Below, in pieces: positions 7,087 to 28,536 of a stretch of 64,000 nt of DNA. Position 1 is the first letter of the stretch. The number at the start of each line of letters is the position of its first letter. Origin of the DNA: Bradyrhizobium manausense (GTDB taxonomy: Bacteria; Pseudomonadota; Alphaproteobacteria; Rhizobiales; Xanthobacteraceae); NCBI RefSeq assembly GCF_001440035.1, contig NZ_LJYG01000112.1:615756-679755 (forward strand), written 5' to 3'. Below the pieces are notes generated by a model. It did no database searches, was not told where the DNA came from, and saw only the letters and a list, made by a program, of their open reading frames with translations. The translations under genes were made by a program, and so were the position numbers.

Positions 7087-8337
7087 ATGTTGAAAGGCAG
7101 TCTAGGACTGATTGCGTTGAGCGGCCTGCTGATGTCGGGTACCGCCTTCGCGCAGGAGAAGATCAAGGTCGGCGTCACCGCGACCCTCGAAGGCACCTAC
7201 ACCGTGCTCGGCGAGGACGGCATCCGTGGCTTCCAGACCGCACTGAACGTGCTCGGCAAAAAGGTCGGCGACAAGGAACTCGAATTCGTCATCGCTTCGA
7301 CGGACGCGACACCGGACTCGGCTGTGCGCGCCGTGCGCAAGCTGATCGAGCAGGACAAGGTGCAGATCCTGCTGTCGCCGCTCTCCGGCGACGAGGGCAT
7401 CGCGGTCAAGAACTTCGCGAAGACCCATCCGGAGCTGACCTTCATCAACGCAGCCTCCGGCGCGCAGGAAACGACCTATGTCGATCCGGCCCCGAATTTC
7501 TTCCGCTACAACATGGACGGCGCGCAATGGCAGGTCGGCCTCGGCAAATACGCCTATGACACCAAGGGTTATCGCAAGATCGCAACGGTCGGCGAGGACT
7601 ACTCCTTCATCTACACCCAGGTGTTCGGCCTCGTGCTCGAATTCTGCGGCGCGGGTGGACAGGTCACCAACCGGCAATGGGTGCCGCTCGGCACCAAGGA
7701 TTTTGCGTCGGTCATCGCGGCGCTGCCTGACGACGTCGATGCCATCTATCTCGGCCTCGGCGGCGGCGACGCCGTCAACTTCCTCAACCAGTACCAGCAG
7801 GCCGGCGGCAAGGCGCATCTGATGGGCGGCTCGATCATGATCGACCAGACCATCCTGTCGTCCAAGGGCAATGCCAAGAACGCGCTGATCGGCACGCTGG
7901 CCGCCAGCGGCCAGGCCGACACGTGGGAGGATCCGGGTTGGCAGAAGTTCGTGAAGGACTATCAGGACGCCTTCCCGCCGAACAAGCGCTTCCCGAGCCC
8001 GTCGCTGCTCGCCACCAACTATTACGGCTCGACCATGGCGCTGATCCTGGCATTGCGTCAGGTCAATGGCGATCTCAGCGACAACCAGTCGAAGTACAAG
8101 GCTGCGCTCGCCAAGATCGAGCTCGATGCGCCCAACGGCAAGATCAAGCTCGACTCCAACCGCCAGGCGATCGGCACCAACTTCGTCACCGAAGTGGTCG
8201 ATGACGGCAAGGGTGCGCTGTTCTCGAAGGTGGTGAAGGTGATCCCGAACGTAAACCAGACGCTGGGCTATGACCCTGCCGTGTTCGCCAAGATCGGTTT
8301 GCCCAGTCGTACAGTACCGGAATGTAAGAAGTACTGA
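7087..8337 (+). CDS. Branched-chain amino acid-type (HAAT) ABC transporter substrate-binding protein
   Basis: A 416-residue periplasmic receptor that should deliver the substrate to the permeases at 9492-11592. A signal peptide is clear (LIALSGLLMSGTAFAQ, cleavage near residue 23), and the mature part opens with KIKVGVTATLEGTYTVLGED, the start of the LivJ/AmiC-like periplasmic fold. ATG at 7087 was chosen for the AGGAGAG ribosome-binding site and signal peptide; upstream in-frame codons are unlikely. The family binds amino acids, amides, urea or aromatic acids, so the name does not fix the ligand. It heads the 22-kb cluster and is separated from the next gene by a long hairpin. Confidence 0.9.
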   Translation: MLKGSLGLIALSGLLMSGTAFAQEKIKVGVTATLEGTYTVLGEDGIRGFQTALNVLGKKVGDKELEFVIASTDATPDSAVRAVRKLIEQDKVQILLSPLSGDEGIAVKNFAKTHPELTFINAASGAQETTYVDPAPNFFRYNMDGAQWQVGLGKYAYDTKGYRKIATVGEDYSFIYTQVFGLVLEFCGAGGQVTNRQWVPLGTKDFASVIAALPDDVDAIYLGLGGGDAVNFLNQYQQAGGKAHLMGGSIMIDQTILSSKGNAKNALIGTLAASGQADTWEDPGWQKFVKDYQDAFPPNKRFPSPSLLATNYYGSTMALILALRQVNGDLSDNQSKYKAALAKIELDAPNGKIKLDSNRQAIGTNFVTEVVDDGKGALFSKVVKVIPNVNQTLGYDPAVFAKIGLPSRTVPECKKY

Positions 8338-8466: not shown

Positions 8467-9294
8467 ATGAGCCGGGCGCTCGCCGTCTTCCACGGCCGCT
8501 TCGGCCGGGCGACGGTCTATCAGTTGAACCGCCCTTTCAATATCCACGCGCATCGCGAAGGTCATTTGATCTTCCATGTCGGCGGGCGTTCCGCATGCAT
8601 CGATGTCAACGACGGACGCTACGACCTCACCGAAGGCTCAGTCGTCGCGGTCAATCCATGGGAACCGCATAATTTTCTTCCCACCGACCTCGACGGCGGC
8701 GCCGTCTTCTTCGTGCTCTATGTCAATCCGGAATGGTTCGCGCCGGATGCGCCCGGCGCCGACCGCCTGCGCTTCGGCCGCACCCAGTTCGCGCGATCGC
8801 CTGCGCTGGACAAGCAGATCAGGCACGCCGCAGCCCTCGTGTGCGGCGCCCCCTCGCTGAACAGCCTCGATGGCGAGCTGCGACGGCTGATCGATAGCTG
8901 CTACGACGAAAGCTGGCACCAGGCCGAGACCGCGCCCGATCTGCGCGCGAACGGTTCCATCACCGATTTTCGCGTCCGCAAGTGCATCAAGATGATGTCG
9001 GAGAGCCCCGGCGCGGAGATCGAGCTCGACACCATCGCACGCGAATCCGGCCTGTCGCGGCCGCATTTCTACCGGCTGTTCCGCACCCAGACCGGCGTCA
9101 CGCCGCACCTTTATCTCAACACGTTGATGATGGAGCAGGCGCTGGAGGCGCTGGTGGAAAGCGAGGTCCCGATCGCCGATATCGGCTTCGATCTCGGCTT
9201 CTCCTCGCAGAGCGGCTTCACCCGCTTCTTCGCCGCCAATGTCGGGATGGCACCGACCGATTATCGCCGCGCGGCCAAGGTTTTGCGCGGCTGA
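8467..9294 (+). CDS. AraC-family transcriptional regulator
   Basis: A 275-residue regulator with an N-terminal cupin-like sensor part (NRPFNIHAHREGHLIFHVGG, then VNPWEPHNF) and a C-terminal double helix-turn-helix domain (residues ~175-272: LDTIARESGLSRPHFYRLFR, then IADIGFDLGFSSQSGFTRFF). Start at 8467 has a strong ribosome-binding site (GGGAGGGA). It lies between the binding protein and the permeases of one importer, so it most likely senses the imported compound or a product and activates the cluster. Ligand unknown. Confidence 0.9.
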   Translation: MSRALAVFHGRFGRATVYQLNRPFNIHAHREGHLIFHVGGRSACIDVNDGRYDLTEGSVVAVNPWEPHNFLPTDLDGGAVFFVLYVNPEWFAPDAPGADRLRFGRTQFARSPALDKQIRHAAALVCGAPSLNSLDGELRRLIDSCYDESWHQAETAPDLRANGSITDFRVRKCIKMMSESPGAEIELDTIARESGLSRPHFYRLFRTQTGVTPHLYLNTLMMEQALEALVESEVPIADIGFDLGFSSQSGFTRFFAANVGMAPTDYRRAAKVLRG

Positions 9295-9491: not shown

Positions 9492-10502
9492 ATGACCCGC
9501 TTTGTCGAGCGTCATCCGGCCTGGGCGCTGATCGTCATCATCGCGGTCGCAGTCGTGCTGTGGCTGATCTTTGCGGTATGGCCGCCGGGGCTTGAAGATG
9601 CGATCGGCCGCAAGCGCGTGTTCCTCAACGCGGTCTTCAACGGCATCACGCTCGGCGGTCTCTATTTCCTTGTCGCCAGCGGCTTCACGCTGATCTTCGG
9701 CCTGATGCGCAATGTCAACCTTGCGCACGGCTCGCTCTATCTGTTCGGCGGCTATGTCGGCTACGCCATCAGCGCCTCGACCGGGTCGTGGATCCTCGCC
9801 TTCATTGTCGCCTTCATCCTGACGGCGCTGGTTGGCATCCTGCTCCAGGTGCTCGTGTTCCGCCGCATGGAGGGCCAGGATCTGCGCCAGACCATGGTGA
9901 CGATCGGACTCTCGATCGTGTTCGCCGACCTGATGCTGTGGGCCTGCGGCGGCGACTTCTACCAGATCCAGACCCCGAGCTGGCTGATCGGTCCGGTCGA
10001 GCTGCCGCTGATCACCGCACTGAAATCCTCCGGCGAACCGGTTTACTTGCGCTATCCGCTGGTGCGACTCGTGATCTTCCTGGCCTCTGTCATCATCGGC
10101 ATCGCGATGTGGCTCGCGCTCAACCGCACCCGGATCGGCATGATCATCCGCGCCGGCGTCGACGATCGCGACATCCTTGCAGCGACCGGCGTGCGCATCC
10201 AGATCGTCTTCGTGCTGGTGTTCGCGCTCGGCGCGGGGCTTGCCGGTATCGCGGGCGTCGTCGGCGGCACCTTCCAATCGCTCTCGCCCGGCGAGGACAT
10301 CCGCTTCCTGCTCGCCTCCCTCGTCGTTGTGATCGTCGGCGGCATGGGCTCGATCCCCGGCGCCGCGCTCGGTGCGCTCATCATCGGCCTCGCCGAGCAG
10401 CTCGGCTCGGTCTACATCCCGACCTACGCCATCGTCGTGACCTTCCTCATCATGGTGCTGGTGCTGGCGCTTCGGCCGCAGGGCCTGCTGGCGAGGCGCT
10501 GA
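9492..10502 (+). CDS. HAAT-family ABC transporter permease, LivH type
   Basis: A 336-residue inner-membrane permease with about eight hydrophobic segments. After an N-terminal anchor it shows the LivH hallmark NGITLGGLYFLVASGFTLIF and the motif MRNVNLAHGSLYLFGGY, and later GGMGSIPGAALGALIIG. It pairs with the LivM-type permease that starts 1 base after its stop. ATG at 9492 follows GAGGAGACGCC. The gap before it (9295-9491, 197 bases) shows no gene and no recognisable operator. Confidence 0.9.
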   Translation: MTRFVERHPAWALIVIIAVAVVLWLIFAVWPPGLEDAIGRKRVFLNAVFNGITLGGLYFLVASGFTLIFGLMRNVNLAHGSLYLFGGYVGYAISASTGSWILAFIVAFILTALVGILLQVLVFRRMEGQDLRQTMVTIGLSIVFADLMLWACGGDFYQIQTPSWLIGPVELPLITALKSSGEPVYLRYPLVRLVIFLASVIIGIAMWLALNRTRIGMIIRAGVDDRDILAATGVRIQIVFVLVFALGAGLAGIAGVVGGTFQSLSPGEDIRFLLASLVVVIVGGMGSIPGAALGALIIGLAEQLGSVYIPTYAIVVTFLIMVLVLALRPQGLLARR

Positions 10503-10503: not shown

Positions 10504-11592
10504 ATGTCCGTCACCCACGATACGCGCATTCAGATCCGCAGCCCCGCCTCCTCGGCGCAGCGGCAGGCCGCACGCGGCTGGCCCGATCTCAACAATCCCG
10601 CAGCCTGGATCGTGGCGGTGATCCTGCTGATCATGCCGCTGATCGCCAACGGCTTCTTCCTGATCGAGATCTTTGCGACCACGCTGATGCTCGGCACCAT
10701 CGCGCTCAGCCTGATGTTCCTCGCCGGCTACGGCGGCATGGTCAGCCTGATGCAGCTCACCATCGCGGGCTTTGCCGCCTACATGGTCGCGGTGTTCGGC
10801 ACCAGCGACAACGCCAATATCAGCCTGGGCTGGCCGTGGTGGCTGGCGGTGCCGACGGCGCTGACGCTCGCGACCATCTTCGGCACGTTCGGCGGCGCGC
10901 TCGCGGTGCGGACCGAGGGCATCTACACAATCATGATCACGCTGGCGATCGGTGCCGCGTTCTACTACTTCACCAACCAGAACTGGGCGATCTTCAACGG
11001 TCATACCGGCATCAACAACGTCGCGACGCCGCATTTCTGGGGCGTCAACTGGCGGTCGGACATTCCGTTCTACTACGTCGTGCTCGCGATCGCCGCACTC
11101 TGCTATTTCGGGGTCGACTACATCTCCCGCGCGCCGTTCGGCCTGGCGCTCCAGGGCGTGCGCGACAATCCGCGCCGCATGGCCGCGCTCGGCTTCAACG
11201 TCAATGCGCACCGCGTCGCCGCCTACGCGGTCGCTTCGTTCATTGCGGGCCTCGCCGGCGTGCTCCAGGTCTGGAACTACCGCCAGATCTCGCCGGGCTC
11301 GGTCAGCGTCGGCGCCTGCATCGATATTCTGATCATCGCCATTGTCGGCGGCATCACCCGCCCGATCGGTCCTTATATCGGCGCCCTGGTGTTCGTGCTG
11401 CTACGCACCTTTGCGCTCGACTTCCTGGTCAAGATCGGGCTCGACGGCAACCGCTTCCGGCTGCTGATCGGGCTCGGCTTCCTTGCCATCGTGTTCTGGT
11501 CGTCGGATGGCGTGATCGGCCTGTGGCAGCGCTGGCGGAGGAGCCAGCGTCCGCAGTCGGATCGCCCGAACGGAGGGCGCGGCCATGGATAG
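10504..11592 (+). CDS. HAAT-family ABC transporter permease, LivM type
   Basis: A 362-residue permease with about ten hydrophobic segments and the LivM features LMFLAGYGGMVSLMQLTIAG and the EAA-like loop RAPFGLALQGVRDNPRRMAALG. It forms the second half of the channel with the preceding gene. Its end overlaps the next gene by 8 bases, indicating translational coupling in one operon. Confidence 0.9.
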   Translation: MSVTHDTRIQIRSPASSAQRQAARGWPDLNNPAAWIVAVILLIMPLIANGFFLIEIFATTLMLGTIALSLMFLAGYGGMVSLMQLTIAGFAAYMVAVFGTSDNANISLGWPWWLAVPTALTLATIFGTFGGALAVRTEGIYTIMITLAIGAAFYYFTNQNWAIFNGHTGINNVATPHFWGVNWRSDIPFYYVVLAIAALCYFGVDYISRAPFGLALQGVRDNPRRMAALGFNVNAHRVAAYAVASFIAGLAGVLQVWNYRQISPGSVSVGACIDILIIAIVGGITRPIGPYIGALVFVLLRTFALDFLVKIGLDGNRFRLLIGLGFLAIVFWSSDGVIGLWQRWRRSQRPQSDRPNGGRGHG

Positions 11593-12367
11593 CGTCGCCC
11601 GGCGCCTCTCCGCGGTCGGAGCCGGTGCAGCGCTGGAGCTGCGCGGCGTGACGCGGCTGTTCGGCGCACTGGCGGCGCTGACCGACGTCACCATCACCGT
11701 GCGCCCCGGCGAGCGGCGCGCCGTGCTCGGCTCCAACGGCGCCGGCAAGACCACGCTGTTCAACTGCATCACCGGCGACTTCCCGCCGACCTCAGGCACG
11801 ATCCGCTTCTTCGGCGAGGACGTCACGCACTTCCCGCCCTATGAGCGCATCCGCCGCGGGCTCAGGCGCACCTACCAGATCTCCGCGCTATTCCCCGGCC
11901 TCACCGTGCAGGACAATGTCTACCTCGCCTGTCGCGGCGTCTCGCGGGGACGCTTCTCGTTCCTGAGGCCCGGCCAGAACGATGCGCTGATGCATGCGGC
12001 CGACAATCTGGTGCAGGCAGTGCATTTGAGCGCGGTTAGGGATCAGCGCGTCGCCGAGCTCGCGCACGGCCAGCAGCGCCAGCTCGAGATCGCCCTGGCG
12101 CTCGCAGGCGCCCCCCGCTTCGTGCTGTTCGACGAGCCCGCCGCCGGCCTGTCGCCGACCGAGCGGGCCGAGCTGGTGGAGATCCTGACCTCACTGCCCG
12201 CGCATATCGGCTACATCATCATCGAGCACGACATGGACGTTGCGCTGCGCGTCGTCGAGAGCGTGACGATGATGCACAATGGCCGCATCTTCAAGGAAGG
12301 CGTGCCGGAGGAGATCCAGTCCGATCCCGAGGTGCAGGAGCTTTATCTCGGAGGCGGCCATGAGTGA
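11585..12367 (+). CDS. HAAT-family ABC transporter ATP-binding protein, LivG type
   Basis: A 260-residue ATPase with Walker A GSNGAGKT, the LivG-type signature LAHGQQRQLEIALAL in place of LSGGQ, Walker B FVLFDEP and H-loop EHD. It forms a heterodimer with the LivF domain of the next gene. It overlaps the LivM gene by 8 bases at the start and the LivF fusion gene by 8 bases at the end. Confidence 0.9.
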   Translation: MDSVARRLSAVGAGAALELRGVTRLFGALAALTDVTITVRPGERRAVLGSNGAGKTTLFNCITGDFPPTSGTIRFFGEDVTHFPPYERIRRGLRRTYQISALFPGLTVQDNVYLACRGVSRGRFSFLRPGQNDALMHAADNLVQAVHLSAVRDQRVAELAHGQQRQLEIALALAGAPRFVLFDEPAAGLSPTERAELVEILTSLPAHIGYIIIEHDMDVALRVVESVTMMHNGRIFKEGVPEEIQSDPEVQELYLGGGHE

Positions 12368-14576
12368 GGCCCGCCGCAGTGCCGCCGCTCTCGAGGTCCG
12401 TGGCCTCGATGTCTACTACGGTCATTCGCACGCGCTACAGGGTGTCGACCTCACGCTCGACGCCGGCGTGTTTTCCGTGGTCGGCCGCAACGGCATGGGC
12501 AAGACCACGCTGTGCAAGGCGATCATGGGGCTTGTGCCGGTCAGCGGCGGCTCGATCCGGGTTCGCGGCGAAGATATCACGCGGCGGCCGCCGGCGAACA
12601 TCGCGCGGCTCGGGGTCGGCTACGTGCCGCAGGGCCGCCGGCTGTGGCGCTCGCTCAGCGTCGACGAGCATCTGCGGCTCGCCGGCGGCATCCGCTCCGG
12701 CGCCTGGACGGTCGAGCGCATCTACGACACCTTTCCGCGGCTTGCCGAACGCCGGGATCACGGCGGCGGCCAGCTCTCAGGCGGCGAGCAGCAGATGCTG
12801 GCGATCTCGCGCGCGCTGCTGACCAATCCGCAATTGCTGATCATGGACGAGCCGACCGAAGGGCTTGCGCCCGTCATCGTCGCCCAGGTCGAGGAGATGC
12901 TGCTGCAGCTCGGCGAGGACGGCGACATGTCCGTGCTCGTGATCGAGCAGAACATCGGCGTCGCCACCGCGATCTCGCGCAACGTCGCGATCATGGTCAA
13001 CGGCCGCATCAACCGCATCATCGACTCTGCGCGGCTGTCCGCCGACCGCGCGTTGCAGCAGCGCCTGCTCGGTGTCGGACTGCATGCCGAGCTGGAGCCC
13101 GACATCGACGTGCCTTCTGCGGGCGACGAAGCAAAGCCTGTCGCTCAGCCCGCACGCACCAGCGGCCCGATGCGCATCTACATTTCCAATCCGACGCCGC
13201 CGACGCGCTGGTCACAGCCGGTCCCGATCGCTCGCATCGAAGCCGCCGCGCGCACGCTGTCGACGCAAGTCGCGCGTCTTGATGAGACCGCGAGGCGCAA
13301 GCGTGAGCCGATAACGGCGCAGACCTCGGGTCCGCCGGTCGTTCTGGTCGTCGGCACGCTCGACACCAAGGGCACCGAGCTACGTTTCATCCGCGACGTC
13401 ATTGGCGAGAGCGGGCTGCGCACGCGGCTCGTCGACGTCTCCACCACCGGCAAGCACGCGACCTGCGACGTCTCCGCGCAGGAGATCGCGCTGAACCATG
13501 GCCGCGGCGGCTCGGCCGTGTTCGGCCCGGACCGCGGCGCCGCTGTCACCGCGATGGCGGACGCGTTCGCCAAGTGGATCAAGCGCCAGGGCAATATCGC
13601 CGGCGTGATCTCGGCCGGCGGTTCGGGCGCCGCATCGCTGGTCGCCCCCGCCATGCGTACCCTCCCCGTCGGCGTGCCAAAACTGATCATCTCCTCGGTC
13701 GCCTCGGGCGATGTCGCGCCTTACGTGGGTCCCGCCGACATCACCATGATGTATTCGGTCACCGACGTGCAGGGCCTCAATTCGATCTCGCGCGCGGTGC
13801 TTTCGAACGGCGCCAATGCCATCGTCGGCATGGTCAAGGCCCGCCTCGACCAGCGCGAAGCCAAGGAGCGCGCCGCGAGTGCCGGCTTGCCCTCGATCGG
13901 CATCACCATGTTCGGCGTCACGACACCAGCGGTGCAGAAGATCGCGGCCGATCTCTCTGGCGATTTCGAATGCCTCGTCTTCCACGCCACCGGCGTCGGC
14001 GGTCTATCGATGGAGAAGCTGGTCGATTCCGGCCAGCTCGCCGGCGTGATCGATCTCACCACCACCGAGATCTGCGACCTCTTGATGGGCGGCGTGTTTC
14101 CGGCGACGGAAGATCGTTTCGGCGCCATCGTCCGCACCCGCCTGCCCTATGTCGGCTCGGTCGGCGCGCTCGACATGGTCAATTTCGGCGCACCCGACAC
14201 CATCCCCGAGCGCTATCGCGGCCGCAAATTCCACGTCCACAATCCGCAGGTGACCTTGATGCGCACGACAGCGGACGAGAACGAGCGCATGGGCCGCTGG
14301 ATCGGCGAACGGCTGAACCAGATGGACGGGCCGGTGCGCTTCTTCCTGCCCGAGGGCGGCGTCTCCGCGCTGGATGCGCGTGGCCAGCCGTTCTGGGACC
14401 CCGCGGCCGACGCTGCCTTGTTCCGCACGCTGGAACGCACGGTGCGTGCGACCGGCAACCGGCAACTCATCCGCGTCAAGCAGAACATCAACGATCCCGA
14501 GTTCGCCTCGACCATCGTGAGCGCGTTCCGAACCCTGTTCGGACGCGCCGGGGCGCGCCGGAGAGCAGCGAGGTGA
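12360..14576 (+). CDS. LivF-type ABC ATPase fused to a Tm-1-like (UPF0261) ATP-binding domain
   Basis: A 738-residue fusion. Residues 1-245 are a normal LivF ATPase: Walker A GRNGMGKT (42-49), signature LSGGEQQ (139-145), Walker B LLIMDEP (159-165). Residues ~246-325 are a low-complexity, proline-rich linker. Residues ~327-738 are a full UPF0261 domain, opening with VLVVGTLDTKGTE and including ISAGGSGAASLVAPAMRTLP and FHATGVGGLSMEKLVDSG. In plants UPF0261 is the N-terminal, ATP-binding, antiviral half of tomato Tm-1; in bacteria its reaction is unknown. The start is fixed by the 8-base overlap with LivG. The fusion ties UPF0261 physically to the transporter and so to the imported substrate. 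Confidence 0.88.
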   Translation: MSEARRSAAALEVRGLDVYYGHSHALQGVDLTLDAGVFSVVGRNGMGKTTLCKAIMGLVPVSGGSIRVRGEDITRRPPANIARLGVGYVPQGRRLWRSLSVDEHLRLAGGIRSGAWTVERIYDTFPRLAERRDHGGGQLSGGEQQMLAISRALLTNPQLLIMDEPTEGLAPVIVAQVEEMLLQLGEDGDMSVLVIEQNIGVATAISRNVAIMVNGRINRIIDSARLSADRALQQRLLGVGLHAELEPDIDVPSAGDEAKPVAQPARTSGPMRIYISNPTPPTRWSQPVPIARIEAAARTLSTQVARLDETARRKREPITAQTSGPPVVLVVGTLDTKGTELRFIRDVIGESGLRTRLVDVSTTGKHATCDVSAQEIALNHGRGGSAVFGPDRGAAVTAMADAFAKWIKRQGNIAGVISAGGSGAASLVAPAMRTLPVGVPKLIISSVASGDVAPYVGPADITMMYSVTDVQGLNSISRAVLSNGANAIVGMVKARLDQREAKERAASAGLPSIGITMFGVTTPAVQKIAADLSGDFECLVFHATGVGGLSMEKLVDSGQLAGVIDLTTTEICDLLMGGVFPATEDRFGAIVRTRLPYVGSVGALDMVNFGAPDTIPERYRGRKFHVHNPQVTLMRTTADENERMGRWIGERLNQMDGPVRFFLPEGGVSALDARGQPFWDPAADAALFRTLERTVRATGNRQLIRVKQNINDPEFASTIVSAFRTLFGRAGARRRAAR

Positions 14577-14579
14577 CCG

Positions 14580-15413
14580 ATGGCCCGGTTTGAACGCGCA
14601 GCACTCCTGAAGCGATTTCGCGACATGGCGAAGCGCGGCGAGCCGATCGTCGGCGGCGGCGCCGGCACCGGCCTTTCGGCCAAATGCGAGGAAGCCGGCG
14701 GCGTCGATCTCATCGTGATCTACAATTCCGGCCGCTATCGCATGGCCGGCCGCGGCTCGCTTGCCGGGCTGATGCCCTATGGCGACGCCAACGCGATCGT
14801 GGTCGAAATGGCCGGCGAAGTGCTGCCGATCGTCAGCAAGACGCCGGTGCTCGCGGGCGTGAACGGCACCGATCCATTCCGCGACATGGATGTGTTCCTC
14901 GACCAGCTCAAGGCACTCGGCTTTGCCGGCGTGCAGAATTTTCCAACCGTCGGACTGATCGACGGCCTCTTCCGCGCCAACCTCGAAGAGACCGGCATGT
15001 CCTACGCGCTGGAGATCGACATGATTGCGAAGGCGCGCGAGAAGGATTTGCTGACGACGCCCTACGTCTTCAGCGAGAAGGAAGCCGCCGCGATGGCGAT
15101 CGCCGGCGCCGATATCATCGTCTGCCACATGGGCCTCACGACCGGCGGCACGATCGGCGCGCAGACCGCGCCCAAGCTGAACGACTGCCCGGCACGCATC
15201 GACACCTGGGCATCGGCGGCGCTCAGCGTCAACCCGGACATTCTGGTGCTCGCCCATGGCGGCCCGATCGCGGATCCCGCGGATGCCGATTTCATCATGA
15301 AGAACACCCGCTACTGCCACGGCTTCTACGGCGCCTCCTCGATGGAGCGGCTGCCGGTGGAGCGGGCATTGACGGAACAGGTCCGCAAATTCAAGGCGAT
15401 CGGCGCGCCGTAA
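14580..15413 (+). CDS. TIM-barrel protein of the Tm-1 C-terminal / PEP hydrolase-like family
   Basis: A 277-residue protein matching the TIM-barrel family found as the C-terminal half of plant Tm-1 proteins (often named phosphoenolpyruvate hydrolase-like). Visible features are the opening [33 protein letters not shown] split over the first strands, then [24 protein letters not shown] and the late strand [19 protein letters not shown]. It begins 3 bases after the UPF0261 fusion gene with the ribosome-binding site GAGGTGA. The two genes thus carry, in order, the two halves of Tm-1. Reaction unknown; an acyl or enolate chemistry is a guess from the fold. Confidence 0.8.
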
Positions 15414-15440: not shown

Positions 15441-18338
15441 ATGTCAGGGATCCTGGTCGGCGAGCTCATCCTCTGGCTGATCGTCGCCATCATCGTGATC
15501 GTGGTTGGCGTCTACATCGTCAATTGGCTCTACCACCGCTCTTCCAAGGAGGTGTCGTTCGTCCGCACCGGCTTCCTCGGCGAGCGCGTGGTGATCAACG
15601 GCGGTGCCTTCGTGCTGCCGTTCATTCACGACTACACGCCCGTCAACATGAACGTGCTGCCGATGGGCATCGTGCGCTCGCGCCAGGACGCCGTGATCAC
15701 CCGTGATCGCATGCGCGTCGACATCGAGGCAGATTTCTATGTGCGGGTGCAGCCGACCCGCGAGGCCGTCTCGATTGCCGCCGCCACGCTCGGCCGCCGC
15801 ACCATGGAGCCGGGGCAGCTCCATACATTGCTGGCCGGCAAGTTCATCTCGGCCATCCGCTCGGTTGCCTCGGAAATGACCATGGAGGAGATGCACGAGC
15901 GCCGCGGCGACTATGTCGCGCGGGTCAAGACCAACGCGGCCGAGGCCCTTGCCCTCAACGGCCTCGAGATCGAGTCCGTCGCCATCACCGATCTCGACCA
16001 GACCGATCTCGAATTCTTCAACCCGTCGAACCGCTTCGACGCCGAAGGTCTGACCCGCCTGATGGAGGACATCGAGGCAAGGCGCAAGCTGCGCAACGAC
16101 ATCGAGCAGGACTCGATGATCAAGATCCGCGCCCGCAATCTGGAGGCCGAGCGGCAGGCGCTGGAAATCGAACGCGAGAGCGAGACCGCGCGGCTCGAGC
16201 AGGAGCGCGACATCGAGATGCGCCGGGCGCTCCAGCGCACCGAAGTCGCCCGCGAACGCGCACTGCGCGAGACCGAGGCCGAGCAGGCCCAGATCTCGGC
16301 GCGCGAGGCCATCGAGCGCTCGCGCATCGCCAACGAGCAGGCGATCGCGGAGGCCCGCATCGCCTCCGAGCGCGAGACCCGCCAGAAGGAGATCGAGCGC
16401 ACCCGGACCATCGAGGAGAAGGAGCTGCTGGCGCGCGAGGAGATCGAGAAGACCCGCATCGCCAACCAACGCTCGATCGATACGACGCGGATTGCCAGCG
16501 AACGCGAGGTCCGCCAGCGCGAGATCGAGCGGATGCGCACGGTCGAGGAGGCCGAGATCGCAGCCCGCGAGGCGATCGAGAAGGCCCGCATCCAGCAGGA
16601 CCGCGTCGTCACCGACGCCCGCATCGCCAATGAGGAGGAGACAAGGCGCCGCGAGATCGAGCGCACCCGCGCCGTCGACGAGGCCGAGATTGCCGCCCGC
16701 GAGGCCACTGAGAAGGCGCGCATCGCGCAGACGCTGATCGTCAATGTCGAACGCATCTCCTCCGACGAACGCACCCGCGCGCTGGAGATCCAGCAGGTCC
16801 GCACCATCCAGGAGGCCGAGATCGAGGCGCAGCGTGCGGTGGAAGCCGCCCGCATCGCCCGCGAACGGACGCTCGCCGCGGAACGGATCGCCGCCGAGCA
16901 GAACACGCGACAGCTCGAAATCGAGCGCAACCAGACCCTCGAAGTCGCCGGCATCGCGGCACGCGAGGCCACCGAGGCCTCGCGCATCGCCCAGGAAGAG
17001 CGCGTCCGTTCGCTGGAGATCGCGCGCAACCGCGCCGTCGAAGAAGCCGATATCGCCTCCCGCGAGGCGATCGAGGCGGCGCGCATCGCCCAGGAGAAGG
17101 CGGTGGCGGCCGAACGCATCCAGGCCGAGCGCGACACGCGTTCGCTGGAGATCGAACGAACCGGCATTCTGGAGGCCGCCGAGCTGAAGCGGCGCGATGC
17201 CATCGAACGCCAGCGCATCACGGTCGACCTCGCGCTCGAGGCCGAGCGGATCAACTCGTCCAAGAAGCGCGAGGTGCTCAACATCGAGCAGAAGAAGGCG
17301 ATCGAGATCGCCGACGAGGACCGCGTCATCGCCCTCTCCGCCAAGAAATCGGAACGGATCGATGCGGATCGCCAGGTCCGCCAGGCCGAGATCGTCGCTC
17401 GCAGGGACGTCGAGACTACAGACGTCTCGCGCGAGCAGGCGTTGGAAGCCGCCCGCCTCGAACGTCGCCGCGCCATCGAGCAGCTCGAGGTCGCCCGCGT
17501 CCAGTCACTGCAGGAGGCCGAAATCTCATCCCGCGAGGAAGTGGAGCGCGCGCGCATCGCCTCCGATCGCGGCCTCGACGAGGCCCGCATCGGCCGCGAG
17601 CGCGAACTGCGCAAGCTCGAAGTCAATCGCGAGAAGGAGGTCGAGACCGTCTTGATGGAGAAGGCGATCGCCATTCATCAGAAATCGCTCGAAGAATCCG
17701 CCGCCCGCGCCGCGGCCGAAGAGGCCCGCATGCGGGCTACCGAGGCCGCCGAGCGCGTGGTTACGGCGCGCGAGAGCGAGATCGCAAAACGCCGCAAGAC
17801 GGTCGAGGTGCTGCTCGCGGAGAAGCAGGCCGAGGAAACCCGCATAGCCGCGGATGCCGAACGTGTCCGCGCCGCCGTCGAGGCTGAGGCGCAGCGGATG
17901 CTCAACGAAGCCGAGAACGTGCTGACGGACCAGGCGCGCTACTCGCTGTTCCGCCGCAAGCTGCTCGACAAGATCGAGGGCATCGTGCGCGAGAGCGTCA
18001 AGCCGATGGAGAAGATCGAGGGCATCCGCATCCTCCAGGTCGACGGCCTCAACGGCAACGGCCACGGCGGCAATGGCGGCCGCAGCGCCACCGACGAGGT
18101 GATCGACTCGGCACTGCGCTACCGCGTGCAGGCGCCGCTGATCGACTCCATCCTGTCCGACATCGGCGTCGAGGGCGGCAGCCTCGCCAAGATGCCGGGC
18201 CTGATCCGCGAGGCCCGCGACATGCAGGGCATCAAGGATTCCGCGCGCAAGGGCGGTGGCGACAAGCAGGCCAGCGCCCCGCCCGCGGCCGAGGGCGGCG
18301 AGCCGCCCGCCGAGCGCGGTCCGCGGAAGAAGAGCTGA
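15441..18338 (+). CDS. Giant flotillin-like SPFH protein with hendecad coiled coil
   Basis: A 965-residue protein. Residues 5-31 are a single membrane helix (ELILWLIVAIIVIVVGVYIV). Residues ~35-200 are an SPFH/band-7 domain with flotillin features (VINGGAFVLPF, ITRDRMRVDIEADFYVRV). Residues ~205-830 are an almost unbroken charged helix rich in Arg, Glu, Ile and Ala, with 11-residue periodicity. Residues ~830-925 resemble the flotillin C-terminus, and the tail is Gly/Pro-rich. Flotillins are usually 450-700 residues, so this coiled coil is unusually long. Flotillins oligomerise into membrane cages that organise lipid and protein patches. Its place between transport and enzyme genes suggests a scaffold for the pathway; that is inference. 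Ribosome-binding site GAGGGAGGG precedes it. Confidence 0.85.
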   Translation: MSGILVGELILWLIVAIIVIVVGVYIVNWLYHRSSKEVSFVRTGFLGERVVINGGAFVLPFIHDYTPVNMNVLPMGIVRSRQDAVITRDRMRVDIEADFYVRVQPTREAVSIAAATLGRRTMEPGQLHTLLAGKFISAIRSVASEMTMEEMHERRGDYVARVKTNAAEALALNGLEIESVAITDLDQTDLEFFNPSNRFDAEGLTRLMEDIEARRKLRNDIEQDSMIKIRARNLEAERQALEIERESETARLEQERDIEMRRALQRTEVARERALRETEAEQAQISAREAIERSRIANEQAIAEARIASERETRQKEIERTRTIEEKELLAREEIEKTRIANQRSIDTTRIASEREVRQREIERMRTVEEAEIAAREAIEKARIQQDRVVTDARIANEEETRRREIERTRAVDEAEIAAREATEKARIAQTLIVNVERISSDERTRALEIQQVRTIQEAEIEAQRAVEAARIARERTLAAERIAAEQNTRQLEIERNQTLEVAGIAAREATEASRIAQEERVRSLEIARNRAVEEADIASREAIEAARIAQEKAVAAERIQAERDTRSLEIERTGILEAAELKRRDAIERQRITVDLALEAERINSSKKREVLNIEQKKAIEIADEDRVIALSAKKSERIDADRQVRQAEIVARRDVETTDVSREQALEAARLERRRAIEQLEVARVQSLQEAEISSREEVERARIASDRGLDEARIGRERELRKLEVNREKEVETVLMEKAIAIHQKSLEESAARAAAEEARMRATEAAERVVTARESEIAKRRKTVEVLLAEKQAEETRIAADAERVRAAVEAEAQRMLNEAENVLTDQARYSLFRRKLLDKIEGIVRESVKPMEKIEGIRILQVDGLNGNGHGGNGGRSATDEVIDSALRYRVQAPLIDSILSDIGVEGGSLAKMPGLIREARDMQGIKDSARKGGGDKQASAPPAAEGGEPPAERGPRKKS
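16380..17402 (+). repeat. Degenerate 132-bp (44-residue) coding repeats in hendecad phase
   Basis: Within the flotillin-like gene the motif R-x-x-E-I-E-R begins at residues 314, 358, 402, 446, 490, 523, 567 and (weaker) 611. Spacings are 44, 44, 44, 44, 33, 44 and 44 residues, all multiples of 11. A typical unit reads RQREIERMRTVEEAEIAARE then AIEKARI. The copies differ at many bases, so this is old duplication under protein-level constraint rather than a fresh DNA repeat. Confidence 0.85.
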
Positions 18339-18348: not shown

Positions 18349-18786
18349 ATGCCCCGCGTCTACGTCTCCACCGTCGTCAATGCGCGCAACGACCGCGTCT
18401 GGGCGCGCGTGCGCGATTTCAACGGCCTGCCGAACTGGCATCCCGCGATCGCCGAAAGCCGGATCGAGGGCGGCGAGCCCGCCGACAAGATCGGATGTGT
18501 GCGCGACTTTCGCCTGCGCAACGGCGACCGCATCCGCGAGAAGCTGCTCGGCCTCTCCGACTACGACATGTTCTGCACCTATTCGATCCTGGAATCGCCG
18601 ATGGGCGTCGAGAACTATGTCGCGACCTTGCGGCTGACGCCCGTCACCGATGGCGACCAGACTTTTGTGGAATGGACCGCCGAGTTCGACTGCGCCCCGG
18701 AGCGCGAGACCGAGCTTGTCGGCGACATCGGCGGCGGTGTGTTCCAGGGCGGGTTCGATGCGCTGAAGCGTGTGTTCGGAGGCTGA
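18349..18786 (+). CDS. SRPBCC (START-like) family protein, first copy
   Basis: A 145-residue single-domain protein of the polyketide-cyclase-like SRPBCC fold, a helix-grip hydrophobic pocket. Key segments are VRDFNGLPNWHPAIAESRIE, DKIGCVRDF and VTDGDQTFVEW. It is closely related to its neighbour at 18792 and probably arose by tandem duplication. CoxG of carbon monoxide dehydrogenase clusters, a membrane- and quinone-linked partner of a molybdenum hydroxylase, belongs to the same superfamily, which fits the hydroxylase genes just downstream. ATG at 18349 is 10 bases after the flotillin stop. Confidence 0.8.
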   Translation: MPRVYVSTVVNARNDRVWARVRDFNGLPNWHPAIAESRIEGGEPADKIGCVRDFRLRNGDRIREKLLGLSDYDMFCTYSILESPMGVENYVATLRLTPVTDGDQTFVEWTAEFDCAPERETELVGDIGGGVFQGGFDALKRVFGG

Positions 18787-18791: not shown

Positions 18792-19235
18792 GTGCCGCAT
18801 ATCGTCAAAAGCACCATCCTGGACGCGCCCACCGATGCAGCGTGGGCACTGCTGCGCGATTTCAACGGGCACGATCGCTGGCATCCGGCGGTCGCGACGT
18901 CTTCGATCGAACGCGCGAATTCGTCCGACAAGATCGGCTGCATCAGACGGTTCAAGCTGCAGGACGGCGCCGAGCTGCGCGAGCAATTGCTGGCGCTGTC
19001 CGACCTCGAACAAAGCTTCAGCTACTGCCTGCTCGATACCCCGATCCCGATGTTCAACTACGTCGCCCATGTCCGCCTGCTGCCTGTCACTGACGGCGAC
19101 CGCACCTTCTGGCACTGGGAGTCGCGCTTCACGACCAGGCCGGAAGACCGCGACCGCATCACCCACATGGTCGCCGAAGACATTTACCAGGCCGGGTTCG
19201 ATGCAATCCGCCGGCACCTGAAGGAGGCCGCCTAG
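18792..19235 (+). CDS. SRPBCC (START-like) family protein, second copy
   Basis: A 147-residue paralogue of the preceding protein, sharing LRDFNGHDRWHPAVATSSIE, DKIGCIRRF and VTDGDRTFWHW at equivalent positions. GTG at 18792 was chosen as start: GGAGG lies 9 bases before it and the product then begins VPHIVKSTILDAP, aligned with the first copy. The next gene starts directly after its stop. Two copies in tandem could make a heterodimer or handle two ligands. Confidence 0.78.
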   Translation: MPHIVKSTILDAPTDAAWALLRDFNGHDRWHPAVATSSIERANSSDKIGCIRRFKLQDGAELREQLLALSDLEQSFSYCLLDTPIPMFNYVAHVRLLPVTDGDRTFWHWESRFTTRPEDRDRITHMVAEDIYQAGFDAIRRHLKEAA

Positions 19236-20054
19236 ATGGCCGTGACAGTGAAGACTTTTGCCAGCGCCAGCGAGGCGGCCGGGGCGCTGTCCTCGGACCG
19301 CAGCGCCCGCTATCTCGGCGGCGGCACGCTGGTGATGCGGGCGCTGAACGAGGGCGATGTCTCGATCTCGACGGTGGTCCGCGCCCAGGATCAGGCACTG
19401 ACGCGGATCGACGCGTCCGGCCCGCGCATCACGTTGGGCGCCGGCGTCACCTTCGCTCGTGTCCTCGCCGAGCGCGACCTCGGCTTCCTGCACGCCCCGG
19501 CCAGATCGATCGGTGGCCCAGCGGTGCGCAACATGGGAACGGTCGGCGGCAATCTTTTTGCGCCGAACCCCTATGGCGATTTCACCGTCGCGCTGCTGGC
19601 GCTCGATGCGACCGTAGCCGTCGCGGGCGGCTTTGGCTCGCGCGACATTCCGATCGAGGAATTTTTGCAGGCGCGCGACCGACAGGCGGGGGCATTGGTC
19701 CTCTCGATCTCCTGCACCCGGCCAGCAAGCACCGAGGCGTTCCGCTATCGCAAGATTGCGCGCATCAAGCCGAAGGGTGGCTCGGTCATCACGCTGGCCG
19801 CGCATCTGCCGATCTCGGGCGGCCGTATCGCAGGCGCCCGGATCGCACTCGGCTCGATGGCGCCGACGCAGATCCGCGCCCGCGCCGCCGAGCGTGCGCT
19901 GGACGGACGTTCGCTGGATGCCGCGACCATCGCCGCTGCCGCATCGGCCGTCACCGAGGGAACATCACCATCCGACAATGCGCTCGGCAGCGCCTGGTAT
20001 CGCCGCGAGATCGTCGGCGTGCATCTGCGCCGCCTGCTGTCGGGACAGGAATAG
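19236..20054 (+). CDS. Molybdenum hydroxylase FAD-binding (medium) subunit
   Basis: A 272-residue subunit of the xanthine dehydrogenase/CoxM family that passes electrons from the iron-sulfur subunit to FAD. The FAD-binding motifs are RYLGGGT and RNMGTVGGNL, followed by the C-terminal CO_deh_flav_C part (FRYRKIARIKPKGGSVITLA). It is about the usual length for this subunit (270-300). It directly abuts the SRPBCC gene and is followed after 6 bases by the [2Fe-2S] subunit. Confidence 0.92.
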   Translation: MAVTVKTFASASEAAGALSSDRSARYLGGGTLVMRALNEGDVSISTVVRAQDQALTRIDASGPRITLGAGVTFARVLAERDLGFLHAPARSIGGPAVRNMGTVGGNLFAPNPYGDFTVALLALDATVAVAGGFGSRDIPIEEFLQARDRQAGALVLSISCTRPASTEAFRYRKIARIKPKGGSVITLAAHLPISGGRIAGARIALGSMAPTQIRARAAERALDGRSLDAATIAAAASAVTEGTSPSDNALGSAWYRREIVGVHLRRLLSGQE

Positions 20055-20060: not shown

Positions 20061-20537
20061 ATGTCCAAGATCCCGCTTCAATTTCGTCACAACGGCCGCG
20101 ACGTCGCCATCTTCGTCGACGGCGGAACCAATCTGCTGGTGGCACTGCGCGAGCTGATCGGCGACATGACGCCGAAATTCGGCTGCGGCCAGGGCGGCTG
20201 CGGCACTTGCAGCGTGCTGATCGACGGCGAACTCCACCTCTCCTGCCTGACGCTGGCGGAAACGGTCGCTGGCCGCGCCGTCGAAACGCTCGACGGCATG
20301 AAGCAGGGTCCGAACCTGCATCCGCTGCAGCGCGCCTTTGCCGACAATTTCGCCGCGCAGTGCGGTTATTGCACGCCGGGCATGCTGATGGCCGCCAAGG
20401 CCTTGCTCGACCGCAATCCCTCACCGAGCCGCGACGAGGTCATCGAGGCCATCTCCGGCAACATCTGCCGCTGCACCGGCTATGAGCCGATCATCAATGC
20501 CATCCTCGCCGCCGCCGGCGGCCGGGTCAGCGCGTAA
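20061..20537 (+). CDS. Molybdenum hydroxylase [2Fe-2S] (small) subunit
   Basis: A 158-residue electron-transfer subunit with all eight cluster cysteines: CGQGGCGTC plus a further Cys (LSCLTL) in the plant-ferredoxin-like half, and CGYCTPG with CRCTGY in the four-helix half. It should carry electrons from the molybdenum centre to FAD. No signal peptide, so the enzyme is cytoplasmic. Confidence 0.95.
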   Translation: MSKIPLQFRHNGRDVAIFVDGGTNLLVALRELIGDMTPKFGCGQGGCGTCSVLIDGELHLSCLTLAETVAGRAVETLDGMKQGPNLHPLQRAFADNFAAQCGYCTPGMLMAAKALLDRNPSPSRDEVIEAISGNICRCTGYEPIINAILAAAGGRVSA

Positions 20538-20549: not shown

Positions 20550-22142
20550 ATGCTGGAACTGCGCAAGGACATCTTCGCCGACGAGCGCGACGATAATTTA
20601 AAGGAAATCGGCAAGGGCACGCAGCGGCAGGACATGCTCGGACATGTCACGGGCACGTCGAGCTATTTCAACGATCACAAGCTTCAGGGCATGTTGCATC
20701 TGAAGGTCGTGCGGTCGACGCAGGCGCATGCACGCATTCGCCGCATCGACACGACGGAGGCTGAGCGCTCGGCCGGCGTGCGCCGGATCATCAGGGGCGC
20801 CGATGTGCCGGTCAATCTGAACACGCTGCTCAGCCTGATCAATTTCGGCAAGGACGACGAGCCCTCGCTGGCGGTCGATAAGGTCCGCTACAAGGGCGAG
20901 CCTGTTATCGCCATCGTCGCCGACAGCGAGCGCGAGGCCTTTGAGGCGATCGCGAAAGTCAGGATCGACTACGAGCCGCTGCCGGCGGTGTTCGACGTCG
21001 AGGACGCGCTGAAGCCCGGCGCACCTGTCGTCAACGAAACCTATCCCAAAAACACCTTCACCTATCACGAGACCTACGATCACCAGCGGCTGCGCTTCGG
21101 CGATGCCGATGCGGCGCTGGGGACCGCCGATCATGTGCTGGAACAACGTTACCAGATGTCGCCGATCGAGCACGCGCCGACCGAGACCAACGGCGCGATC
21201 GCTGCGCCCGACACCAACGGTCGCTATATCGTCTATACCTCGACCCAGGCGCTGTTCTTTTCGGTCGATACCTGCGCCAAGATTCTGAACGTGCCGTCCA
21301 ACACCTTCCATTTCATCGGCGGCACCGTCGGCGGCGGCTTTGGCGGCAAGGTCGACACGCTGACCGAGCCGCTTGCCATCCTCGGCGCCATGCTGACCGG
21401 AAAGCCCGTGCGCTACGTGTTCGGGCGCGAGGAGGAGATGCAATATGGCCCGCCGCGCGGCGCCGAGCGCATCTACATCAAGGACGGCGTGATGCGCGAC
21501 GGCCGCATCGTCGCGCGCAAGATCCGCGCCTATTTCGACAGCGGCGCCTATACCCGCCTCTCCAGCTACGCCGCGGTGAAATGCGCCGCGCATCTGCCGG
21601 GCCCCTACACCATCCCGAATGTCTATGGTGACGTCTATTGCGTCTTCACCAACCGCACGCCGGCGACCGCCATGCGCGGCTTCGGCGTCACCGCAATGGA
21701 TTTTGCCATCGAGTGCCAGATGGACAAGCTGGCGCACCTCATCAACATGGATCCGATGGAGTTCCGGATCCTCAACGCCTATCGCGACGGCGACATGAAG
21801 GCGCACCGGCGCGAGGCCAAGAACACGGCGCTGATCGAATGCGTGCAGGTCGCGGCTGAAAAGGCCAAATGGCCGCTGCGCGAGGAGTTCAGGCGGGCAT
21901 CCTCGCGCAAGGACGGCGGCGGCAGCCGCGCCATGATCCCGCCGACACCGGCAGACTCACGCGTACGGCCAGCGGCTCCGGTGCAGCAGCGCACCAGCTA
22001 CGACCGGCTGCCACCGACCGTCACCCGCGAACCGCCGCGCGATCCGCCTCCGCCGGCTCCGACGCCGCCTTCGCCGCCGCCCGCCGCGCCCTCGCATGGC
22101 GCGACCCGCTTCTCCTCAGTCTTCGGCACCAGGAGGCGCTAG
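20550..22142 (+). CDS. Molybdenum hydroxylase large subunit, N-terminal half
   Basis: A 530-residue protein equal to the first part of a xanthine dehydrogenase/aldehyde oxidase large subunit (usually ~760-800 residues in one chain). It has the opening IGKGTQRQDMLGHVTGTSSYFND, the molybdopterin-contact region GGTVGGGFGGKVD, and AMRGFG. The CODH loop AYXCSFR is absent, so this is not a form I CO dehydrogenase. Residues ~465-515 form a proline-rich tail (PPPPAPTPPSPPP). The stop TAG (22140-22142) is followed at once, in the same frame, by the ATG of the second half. Nicotinate dehydrogenase of Eubacterium barkeri has a similarly split large subunit. Confidence 0.9.
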   Translation: MLELRKDIFADERDDNLKEIGKGTQRQDMLGHVTGTSSYFNDHKLQGMLHLKVVRSTQAHARIRRIDTTEAERSAGVRRIIRGADVPVNLNTLLSLINFGKDDEPSLAVDKVRYKGEPVIAIVADSEREAFEAIAKVRIDYEPLPAVFDVEDALKPGAPVVNETYPKNTFTYHETYDHQRLRFGDADAALGTADHVLEQRYQMSPIEHAPTETNGAIAAPDTNGRYIVYTSTQALFFSVDTCAKILNVPSNTFHFIGGTVGGGFGGKVDTLTEPLAILGAMLTGKPVRYVFGREEEMQYGPPRGAERIYIKDGVMRDGRIVARKIRAYFDSGAYTRLSSYAAVKCAAHLPGPYTIPNVYGDVYCVFTNRTPATAMRGFGVTAMDFAIECQMDKLAHLINMDPMEFRILNAYRDGDMKAHRREAKNTALIECVQVAAEKAKWPLREEFRRASSRKDGGGSRAMIPPTPADSRVRPAAPVQQRTSYDRLPPTVTREPPRDPPPPAPTPPSPPPAAPSHGATRFSSVFGTRRR

Positions 22143-23177: not shown

Positions 23178-24059
23178 ATGCCGGTCCGCAGCAACATCGT
23201 CGGCATCGACAGCCCGGAGGCGCTGGAGAAAGCGCTGCGCGCTGCCTATTACCTCGCCGACGAAGGCCTTGCGACCGCGGCCTATCTGGGCCTTGCGCTC
23301 GGCAAGCCGTTGCTGCTCGAGGGCGCGCCGGGTGTCGGCAAAACGGAGGCCGCAAAGGCCATCGCAGCCGTGCTCGGCCGCCGTCTGATCCGCCTGCAAT
23401 GCTACGAGGGCATCGACGCCTCCGCTGCACTCTACGAGTGGAACTATCCGCGCCAGATGCTTGCGATCCGCCAGGCCGGCGACGAGAGCATCGACATCTA
23501 CGGCGAGACATTCCTGATCGAGCGGCCGATGCTGGCGGCTTTGCGAGCCCCGGACTCGACTGTGCTGCTGATCGACGAAGTCGACCGCGCCGACCAGGAG
23601 TTCGAGGCTTTCCTGCTGGAATTCCTCTCCGACTTCCAGATCTCGATCCCCGAGCGCGGCACCGTGCGTGCTGCCGAACGCCCCGTCGTCGTCCTGACAT
23701 CGAACCGGACGCGCGACCTGCACGAAGCGTTGCGCCGCCGCTGCGTCTATCACTGGATCGACTATCCCAACGAAGCGCGCGAGGCCCGCATCGTGATGCT
23801 GCGCGCCTCCAGCGTCGCCGAAGCGACCGCGCGGGCCGTCGTCGCGGCGGTCGGCAAGCTCCGGCGCGAGCCGCTGAGCAAGGCGCCTGGCATCGCCGAG
23901 GCCGTGGATTGGGCCGAGGCCGCAACGCTGCTGCACAAGGGCGGTGCGCGCTGGCCCGATGCGTTCAAGCGATCGATTGGCGTCGCGCTGAAGGACGAGG
24001 AGGATCTGCACTTCATCTCGCCCCGGCTCGACGCCATGCTCGCGGAGGCGACCGCATGA
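23178..24059 (+). CDS. MoxR-type AAA+ ATPase, CoxD-like
   Basis: A 293-residue AAA+ ATPase with Walker A GAPGVGKT (49-56), Walker B VLLIDEVDRAD and the sensor segment VLTSNRTRDL. MoxR ATPases act with VWA proteins to remodel or mature other proteins; CoxD in CO dehydrogenase operons helps build the molybdenum active site. The VWA partner gene overlaps its stop by 4 bases (ATGA). No XdhC-type sulfuration factor is in the cluster, so this pair may fill that role. Confidence 0.9.
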   Translation: MPVRSNIVGIDSPEALEKALRAAYYLADEGLATAAYLGLALGKPLLLEGAPGVGKTEAAKAIAAVLGRRLIRLQCYEGIDASAALYEWNYPRQMLAIRQAGDESIDIYGETFLIERPMLAALRAPDSTVLLIDEVDRADQEFEAFLLEFLSDFQISIPERGTVRAAERPVVVLTSNRTRDLHEALRRRCVYHWIDYPNEAREARIVMLRASSVAEATARAVVAAVGKLRREPLSKAPGIAEAVDWAEAATLLHKGGARWPDAFKRSIGVALKDEEDLHFISPRLDAMLAEATA

Positions 24060-26058: not shown

Positions 26059-26089
26059 ACGACAAGAAAGAACACAAGGAGGGCAACGA

Positions 26090-26938: not shown

Positions 26939-26958
26939 CATGATGTGAGGGCCGACCG

Positions 26959-28533: not shown

Positions 28534-28536
28534 GCG

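Follow-up and report, generated by a model that had tools for sequence, protein, structure and literature searches.

The window analysed here is a stretch of 64,000 nucleotides from Bradyrhizobium manausense (contig NZ_LJYG01000112.1 of assembly GCF_001440035.1, positions 615,756 to 679,755 of the forward strand), and the element in question is an open reading frame (ORF) on its plus strand at 12360-14576 (all positions are those of the window unless another locus is named). The ORF encodes 738 residues, in which a linker joins an intact LivF-type ATPase to a complete UPF0261 protein of two domains. A preliminary description of the locus, made from the sequence alone, had claimed a UPF0261 protein after residue 327, covalently attached to a LivF ATPase; a Pfam profile search indeed located the UPF0261 N domain at residues 327-495 (E 1.5e-60) and UPF0261_C at residues 511-726 (E 8.9e-91) of this single ORF, with ABC_tran (ABC, ATP-binding cassette) at residues 26-166 (E 7e-27, 95.1 bits). 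Scores to PF06792 and PF23189 were 204.7 and 303.4 bits, respectively (curated cut-offs of 27), and the C-terminal half also passed the NCBIfam model NF002673 (595.5 bits; cut-off of 520), which places it in the UPF0261 family. The ATPase domain (residues ∼1-243) is encoded at 12360..13088, the linker (residues ∼244-326, poorly conserved in an alignment of fused proteins) at 13089..13337, and the two UPF0261 domains (residues 327-726, from profile and structure-sequence alignment) at 13338..14537. Among proteins of solved structure, the UPF0261 half matched tomato Tm-1 best (PDB 3wry; E 8.5e-96).

The translation of the ATPase half contains Walker A, signature, and Walker B motifs, and a pattern search found these in 105, 106, and 106, respectively, of 106 fused ORFs. 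The domain scored 220.1 bits against the UrtE model (cut-off of 285.8) and 150.3 bits against the LivF model (cut-off of 441), and thus fell below the curated cut-off of both equivalog models. Two annotated fusions that were inspected are both named 'ABC transporter permease'; no permease domain was found in the Pfam search of the window fusion. An anti-phage role, by analogy with Tm-1, was also considered and was not supported. When four proteins were scanned against the PADLOC models, the only matches fell within the ABC ATPase region of the fused protein (mad3 at residues 129-212, mad8 at residues 23-199), and none was obtained for the TIM (triosephosphate isomerase)-barrel protein, the flotillin, or the first SRPBCC protein of the operon at E up to 1e-5.

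To assess how widespread the fusion is, genome contigs were scanned with the UPF0261 half as query, and the best 80 of 190 relatives were kept as the nearest-relative set; by title, 77 of these 80 are Bradyrhizobium, the rest being 'Frankia sp. RB7', an alphaproteobacterial metagenome-assembled genome, and Chelatococcus. ATPase and UPF0261 lie in one frame in 79 of the 80 loci, and in 27 further loci. In the 80th locus (L090) both parts are present in two overlapping frames, with a flotillin gene also there, and this locus was counted neither as fused nor as unfused. The possibility, raised in the preliminary description, that the fusion is an artefact or unique to one genome is ruled out by these in-frame loci; the fusion is real and recurrent. 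UPF0261 was present in 50 of 385 genomes spread over the class. From the class and wider searches 60 regions were fetched, weak, fragmentary, and most further Bradyrhizobium places being left out. Thirty loci came from the class spread, 19 of them fused (the window's own included, under 14 family labels) and 11 unfused; at the class-spread places without a locus, no open frame exceeded 496 residues, a length that cannot accommodate the fusion. Further searches added six family labels with fused loci (f174, f24, f249, f255, f257, and f258), giving 20 in total, all within the class, and in a search of the phylum the frames in five genomes of other classes measured only 362-468 residues. The fusion is also carried on a plasmid of Variovorax. 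Among plasmid records matching at E up to 1e-60, 4 of 204 cover at least 80% of the query; those of Shinella, Yoonia, and Variovorax are fused, and that of Thermomicrobium has two adjacent genes.

A tree of UPF0261 sequences was then built from matches above 100 bits and of at least 300 residues, giving 78 rows, of which 34 were fused (the window, 6 of the 80 nearest relatives, and 27 others) and 44 unfused. All 34 fused rows, together with one unfused row (L196), grouped with support of 100/97, and the fused label required 2 changes on this tree, compared with a shuffled mean of 25.8. This pattern fits one origin of the fusion followed by one loss. In L196, UPF0261 and PF09370 are present and unfused; no flotillin, Liv permease, or binding-protein match was found in its 19.5 kb, and the only ATPase match, LivG-like, is on the other strand.

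The tightest partner of the fusion is a flotillin gene at 15441..18338 (plus strand), which lies outside the stretch covered by the preliminary description. Its product of 965 residues was identified by profile (Band_7/SPFH at residues 47-187, Flot at residues 793-910) and has a long charged coil between the two domains. Neighbours were tallied on the same strand within 9 kb, and the counts for PF09370, flotillin, and SRPBCC omit genes with less than 2.5 kb downstream and no match, which for flotillin removed two fused loci (L093 and L174) and 5 of the 44 unfused genes. A flotillin gene was found downstream of the fusion in 104 of 104 testable fused loci (78/78 nearest-relative and 26/26 others) and near 1 of 39 unfused UPF0261 genes. 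Because that one flotillin (L157) belongs to a fused copy in the same locus, the count for unfused genes becomes 0 of 38 when the gene is set aside. In the 26 fused loci outside the nearest-relative set, the flotillin ORFs vary from 580 to 1541 residues, measured from stop to stop. The B. manausense genome holds one other Flot-domain protein.

The linker carries a short motif, TRWS, at residues 282-285 (13203..13214, plus strand), and [TNP]RW[STNG] was present in 106 of 106 fused linkers (scanned stretches of 92-225 residues). R283 and W284 are the sole linker residues common to all 33 aligned fused proteins. In a less related set, RW occurred in 29 of 29 linkers, compared with a mean of 3.0 and a maximum of 9 upon within-linker shuffling; this set comprises the 27 other loci plus L109 and L110, the last in fact a close Bradyrhizobium. 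Given that the less related linkers have a median identity of 45% in a permissive global alignment, and that the ends of the stretches include domain edges, shared ancestry explains part of this conservation. At eight loci where the genes are separate, the UPF0261 ORFs inspected contained no RW; a single LivF-like ORF there has RW close to its N-terminus, which is untrimmed, and several of the LivF-like ORFs are cut by the end of the locus. The motif may serve to bind flotillin.

The gene after the fusion, at 14580..15413 (plus strand), encodes 277 residues. The preliminary description had assigned this protein to the phosphoenolpyruvate (PEP) hydrolase-like TIM-barrel family, and the profile search agreed: PF09370 spans residues 9-274, covering positions 2-267 of the 267-position profile (E 3.8e-130, 433.3 bits; cut-off of 33.8). 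Its best solved relative is Mll9387 (PDB 2p10; E 2.8e-120). 'PEP hydrolase-like' is a family label, and only through this name might hydrolysis of PEP or a like compound be suggested. PF09370 was found within 9 kb in 79/79 nearest-relative fused loci and in 24/26 other fused loci, and the TIM-barrel gene is directly downstream of the fusion in 102 of 106. In L201 and L204, no TIM barrel was found in the fetched neighbourhood, and the single genome copy is elsewhere; in L156, the TIM barrel that was counted sits 4.7 kb upstream. Flotillin is thus the stricter partner of the fusion. A clean co-inheritance of both Tm-1 halves in the fused loci was likewise not supported, as on a quick tree of 62 rows (31 fused; one unfused row, L157, with an extreme branch) the fused-associated TIM barrels required 8 label changes, at least 4 of them forced, compared with a shuffled mean of 21.0. 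PF09370-like matches of 131-140 bits also occur in larger proteins beside UPF0261 clusters (L149 at 15841-17679, L150 at 8490-10334, and L151 at 8099-11248 on the minus strand). Since those of L149 and L150 (610 residues; 140 and 131 bits, respectively) are annotated as sigma-54-dependent regulators or activators, a role of the TIM barrel as a sensor domain is possible as well.

The preliminary description had presented this locus as a Tm-1 architecture split over two genes. The order, UPF0261 and then TIM barrel, is as described, and the two genes are separate and adjacent, with a gap of 3 bases. A split of this kind is not odd. According to the available part of PMC5028733, the two Tm-1 domains are generally encoded by separate genes in bacteria, archaea, and fungi, show correlated evolution, and co-occur to the extent that UPF0261 is also present in 491 of 504 bacterial genomes having the TIM-barrel gene. 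Because separate genes are the normal prokaryotic state and this has been published, the split is not new. The words 'ABC' and 'transporter' occur 0 times in PMC5028733. What sets the locus apart is the fused ATPase, together with the linker motif and the flotillin gene. What appears new here (no literature search was aimed at ATPase-kinase fusions or at flotillin with ABC transporters) is the grouping of the fused proteins with one unfused member inside, the association with flotillin, and the linker motif.

The remaining genes around the fusion are also on the plus strand. A LivK-type periplasmic binding protein (Peripla_BP_6) is encoded at 7087..8337, as placed by profile (scanned as 6874-8334) and gene call; its start is uncertain, the longest ORF beginning at 6874. 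An AraC-type regulator, identified by profile, follows at 8467..9294. The LivH-type (9492..10502) and LivM-type (10504..11592) permeases are ORFs named from gene order and sequence, without a profile search; LivH and LivM matches were each found within 9 kb in 77 of 79 fused nearest-relative loci. The LivG-type ATPase (ABC_tran and BCA_ABC_TP_C by profile; 11585..12367) overlaps the fusion by 8 bases. All five components of a LivKHMGF-type importer are therefore present. From LivH at 9492 to 29163, predicted genes all run in the same direction, with overlaps of at most 8 bases and gaps of at most 31 bases, and this region is predicted to form one operon, with the LivK and AraC genes just upstream.

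Downstream of the flotillin gene lie SRPBCC protein 1 (Polyketide_cyc2 by profile, scanned as 18340-18783; 18349..18786) and SRPBCC-like protein 2 (18792..19235), an ORF named from its likeness to SRPBCC matches in other loci, without a profile search in the window. Profiles then identified the subunits of a molybdenum hydroxylase, namely the FAD subunit (CoxM-like; 19236..20054), the 2Fe-2S subunit (CoxS-like; 20061..20537), and the large subunit in two halves, the first (20550..22142) with a Pro-rich tail ending RFSSVFGTRRR and the second (MoCoBD_2) at 22143..23165. An AAA ATPase (MadB-like, below the MadB model cut-off) and a CoxE-like VWA protein (23178..25177, by profile) are probably a maturation pair for the hydroxylase. 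The genes at 25174..29163 (gene call and profile), encoding an Amidohydro_2 protein, a metallo-beta-lactamase-fold protein, an SGL-isochorismatase fusion, and a Flavodoxin_2 protein, are the probable end of the operon. In the SGL-isochorismatase fusion (26959-28533), a gluconolactonase-like SGL domain is joined to an isochorismatase domain; a match in Yoonia at the same place is annotated as isochorismatase family.

The large hydroxylase subunit is encoded as two genes in 84 of 85 loci having the first half, the exception being Thermomicrobium (L147). The tail of the first half ends in RFS(S/T)(V/I/L)(F/S)G, then 0 or 1 residue, and RRR in 83 of 84; in Yoonia (L145) it is RFISGSRRR. This tail is possibly a docking peptide. 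A common R-aromatic-S motif across the operon was also considered and found no support: beyond the linker of the fusion and the tail of CoxL1 (the first half), the pattern is frequent in LivG, AraC, and SRPBCC-like protein 2, so that any link between linker and tail is speculation. Beyond the operon, the other strand carries genes for a RbsD/FucU-like protein, a Dak1 protein, and a protein with PEP-utilisers N and C domains (29208-32896), which suggests a dihydroxyacetone-kinase-type system dependent on the phosphotransferase system (PTS). Upstream of the importer genes are a Y-family polymerase (IMS) gene (3407-4507) and an opposite-strand protein joining FAN1_HTH, VRR_NUC, and RNase_T exonuclease domains (4532-6691).

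Fused loci were found in two kinds of operon. In the first, which includes the window, the molybdenum hydroxylase lies behind and an AraC gene is mostly in front; the hydroxylase was present in 10 of 27 fused loci outside the nearest-relative set, with an AraC match in 9 of those 10. In the second, for which L166 was profiled and L156 in part, the genes encode an SRPBCC-quinone reductase fusion, an FAA hydrolase, an enol-lactonase-like hydrolase, and an amidohydrolase; in L166 (10582-12060) the SRPBCC domain is joined to a part resembling zinc-type NADPH:quinone reductases. Molybdenum hydroxylases, FAA hydrolases, enol-lactonase-like hydrolases, and SRPBCC-quinone reductase fusions are enzyme kinds common in ring catabolism.

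The UPF0261 domain is called uncharacterised in the available part of PMC5028733. A clue to its function came from Foldseek and sequence searches, both of which found PDB entry 9mpy, titled 'Structure of Saro_1862, a UPF0261 domain protein from Novosphingobium aromaticivorans with bound acetovanillone'. The UPF0261 half aligned to 9mpy end to end (E 1.2e-55, residues 5-407 of 418), and D335, K337, H542, D565, R586, and G667 were conserved in 78 of 78 UPF0261 sequences (34 of 34 fused) and, in the printed alignment, in 9mpy. The near-invariant family residues were kept in 32-34 of 34 fused sequences at each listed position. Acetovanillone catabolism in N. aromaticivorans begins with a single-component kinase, MarK, as stated in the accessible portion of PMC13101465. 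Moreover, a plasmid gene of Sphingobium yanoikuyae (L217) is a close relative of Saro_1862 (578 bits), and around it are genes for biotin-carrier, biotin-carboxylase, carboxyltransferase-like, HAD-type hydrolase, and BKACE proteins; no PPDK/PEP-utiliser-type kinase was found among the seven proteins scanned at that locus. The layout resembles the kinase-carboxylase-phosphatase (hpe/acv) pathway described in the available part of PMC9618137, with UPF0261 taking the position of the two-component kinase, and lends independent support to a kinase function. Neither a biotin-dependent carboxylase nor a HAD phosphatase was among the window operon proteins profiled, where PF09370, flotillin, and the molybdenum hydroxylase occur instead; as the carboxylase/HAD context was lacking, we class the fusion as a UPF0261 family member and not as a MarK orthologue. 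The preliminary description had suggested that the substrate is possibly first activated at the expense of ATP and then acted on by a lyase or hydrolase; this is partly supported, in that it fits the acetovanillone-bound structure and the MarK clue. More distant UPF0261 genes lie beside other enzymes, such as creatininase and class II aldolase (Thermus), BKACE (Sphingobium), and HAD hydrolase and aminotransferase (Agrobacterium), and we propose that UPF0261 may make an activated intermediate, which differing partner enzymes would cleave or change.

Structure models were also made, from alignments of close relatives only (24 and 21 rows). The model of the UPF0261 half had a mean predicted local distance difference test (pLDDT) of 65.2 and a predicted template-modelling score (pTM) of 0.51. 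With Foldseek and VIA-align it matched Tm-1 and 9mpy and then PurE and other folds (Z ∼10-12); the latter matches, most of them over the N-terminal domain of this model, are taken as common fold only. The whole-fusion model (mean pLDDT of 50.2, pTM of 0.34) was too poor for use.

From these data we tentatively favour, at somewhat less than an even chance, a model in which the UPF0261 half is a small-molecule kinase tethered to the ATPase of a LivKHMGF-type importer and scaffolded by flotillin. The importer would bring in an aromatic, heteroaromatic, or cyclic enolic compound, and at its cytoplasmic mouth the tethered UPF0261 domain would phosphorylate the substrate on a hydroxyl or enol oxygen, with ATP as the donor. 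Phosphorylation would trap the compound and prime it for later steps, in which the PF09370 TIM barrel, the SRPBCC proteins, and variable oxidoreductases and hydrolases would process it, and the operon flotillin would keep these proteins together at the membrane, with the linker RW motif as a possible point of attachment. The trapping idea is carried over by analogy from passive uptake: in the available part of PMC9618137 it is proposed that phosphorylation may sustain the gradient along which a hydrophobic substrate is passively taken up, and stop its loss.

Several points weigh against this model. The uptake envisaged in PMC9618137, in the part available, is passive diffusion and not an ABC importer. 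Identity between the UPF0261 half and 9mpy is about 30% (28-32%), and the probable equivalence of Saro_1862 and MarK was judged from titles. The UPF0261 and TIM-barrel pair is also found beside sugar-type ABC systems, so that the substrate range appears broad. In Thermomicrobium, separate PPDK_N and PEP-utiliser proteins (L147, 18365-19333 and 22202-23893) lie a few genes from UPF0261 and resemble a two-component kinase of the phenylphosphate-synthase type; they are a possible second kinase. The fused label is not cleanly separated on the TIM-barrel tree, and both structure models are poor and silent on docking. Finally, the flotillin count does not represent 104 independent events, as the fused genes form one tree group and close relatives account for 78 of the cases.

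That the fusion is a convenience of stoichiometry or expression, with UPF0261 working as it does when free and its location and linker being irrelevant, is unlikely. Fused and unfused versions do occur in similar operons, L196 is unfused within the fused group, and in L090 the parts are in different frames, through either a sequencing error or a real split. However, L196 shows no flotillin, Liv permease, or binding-protein match nearby, and the preservation of one short motif in a linker whose remaining sequence is poorly conserved, together with the constant flotillin neighbour, suggests a positional role. It is slightly less likely still that the UPF0261 domain is a regulator that senses ATP or a (phosphorylated) metabolite and gates the ATPase, like the C-terminal domain of MalK, leaving catalysis to the TIM barrel and later genes. 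Regulatory C-terminal domains on importer ATPases are known, and the PF09370-like domains in the sigma-54-activator-annotated proteins indicate that members of this system can be ligand sensors; yet 33 of 44 unfused UPF0261 genes have no LivF match nearby, showing that standalone proteins are common, and the retention of the family residues in the fused sequences is as expected for retained chemistry. Activation of the substrate by another ATP-dependent route, as an acyl-phosphate or adenylate on a carboxylate, for the TIM barrel is very improbable: LivKHMGF systems often import acids, the relatives suggest only ATP dependence and ligand binding, and Foldseek matched the predicted acyl-CoA synthetase 3dmy (E 5.6e-5), but that match has a TM score of 0.27 on a poor model, the closest ligand-bound relative holds a neutral phenolic ketone, and the literature clue is a kinase (PMC13101465, available part).

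The kinase model can be extended to an ABC-type group translocation, in which the ATPase-borne kinase phosphorylates the incoming molecule, [TNP]RW[STNG] docks on a flotillin platform, the molybdenum hydroxylase is recruited by its RFSS..RRR tail, and plant Tm-1 is descended from the kinase and lyase of such pathways. We regard this extended form as unlikely. A member with a bound phenolic ketone, together with the covalent link to an importer ATPase, makes the native role of the Tm-1 family directly testable. If the kinase model is correct, a single protein would act as both importer motor and substrate kinase, and a clear cargo could be assigned to a bacterial flotillin.

The locus can be compared with several known systems. 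Plant Tm-1 and Tm-1L likewise have UPF0261 followed by a TIM-barrel domain; however, both halves form one protein there, whereas the window has two genes, and the locus was accordingly not assigned to Tm-1L. No ABC ATPase is described for plant Tm-1, and inhibition of tomato mosaic virus replication is a plant trait (PMC5028733, available part). Saro_1862 shares with the fusion the whole two-domain UPF0261 length and the motifs DTK, PKLI.S..ASG, FH..G.GG, and HNPQ.T..RT, but is a 406-residue chain without an ATPase domain, and its close Sphingobium relative has biotin-carboxylase and HAD genes where the fusion has PF09370 and flotillin. The operon of Thermomicrobium roseum has the importer genes next to those for UPF0261 and the TIM barrel, ordered as they are here; in contrast, LivF, UPF0261, and PF09370 are three separate genes, and the 30 kb inspected contain no annotated or matched flotillin. 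In L155 and L182, too, unfused genes for LivF, UPF0261, and the TIM barrel lie side by side. The proposed tie between import and phosphorylation recalls group translocation of the phosphotransferase type, as an analogy only: no PTS component was found among the window operon proteins profiled, and here transport would be ABC-driven, with ATP as the phosphate donor. The importer itself has the same five components as the LivKHMGF and UrtABCDE systems, to which the fusion ATPase adds a UPF0261 protein of 400 residues.

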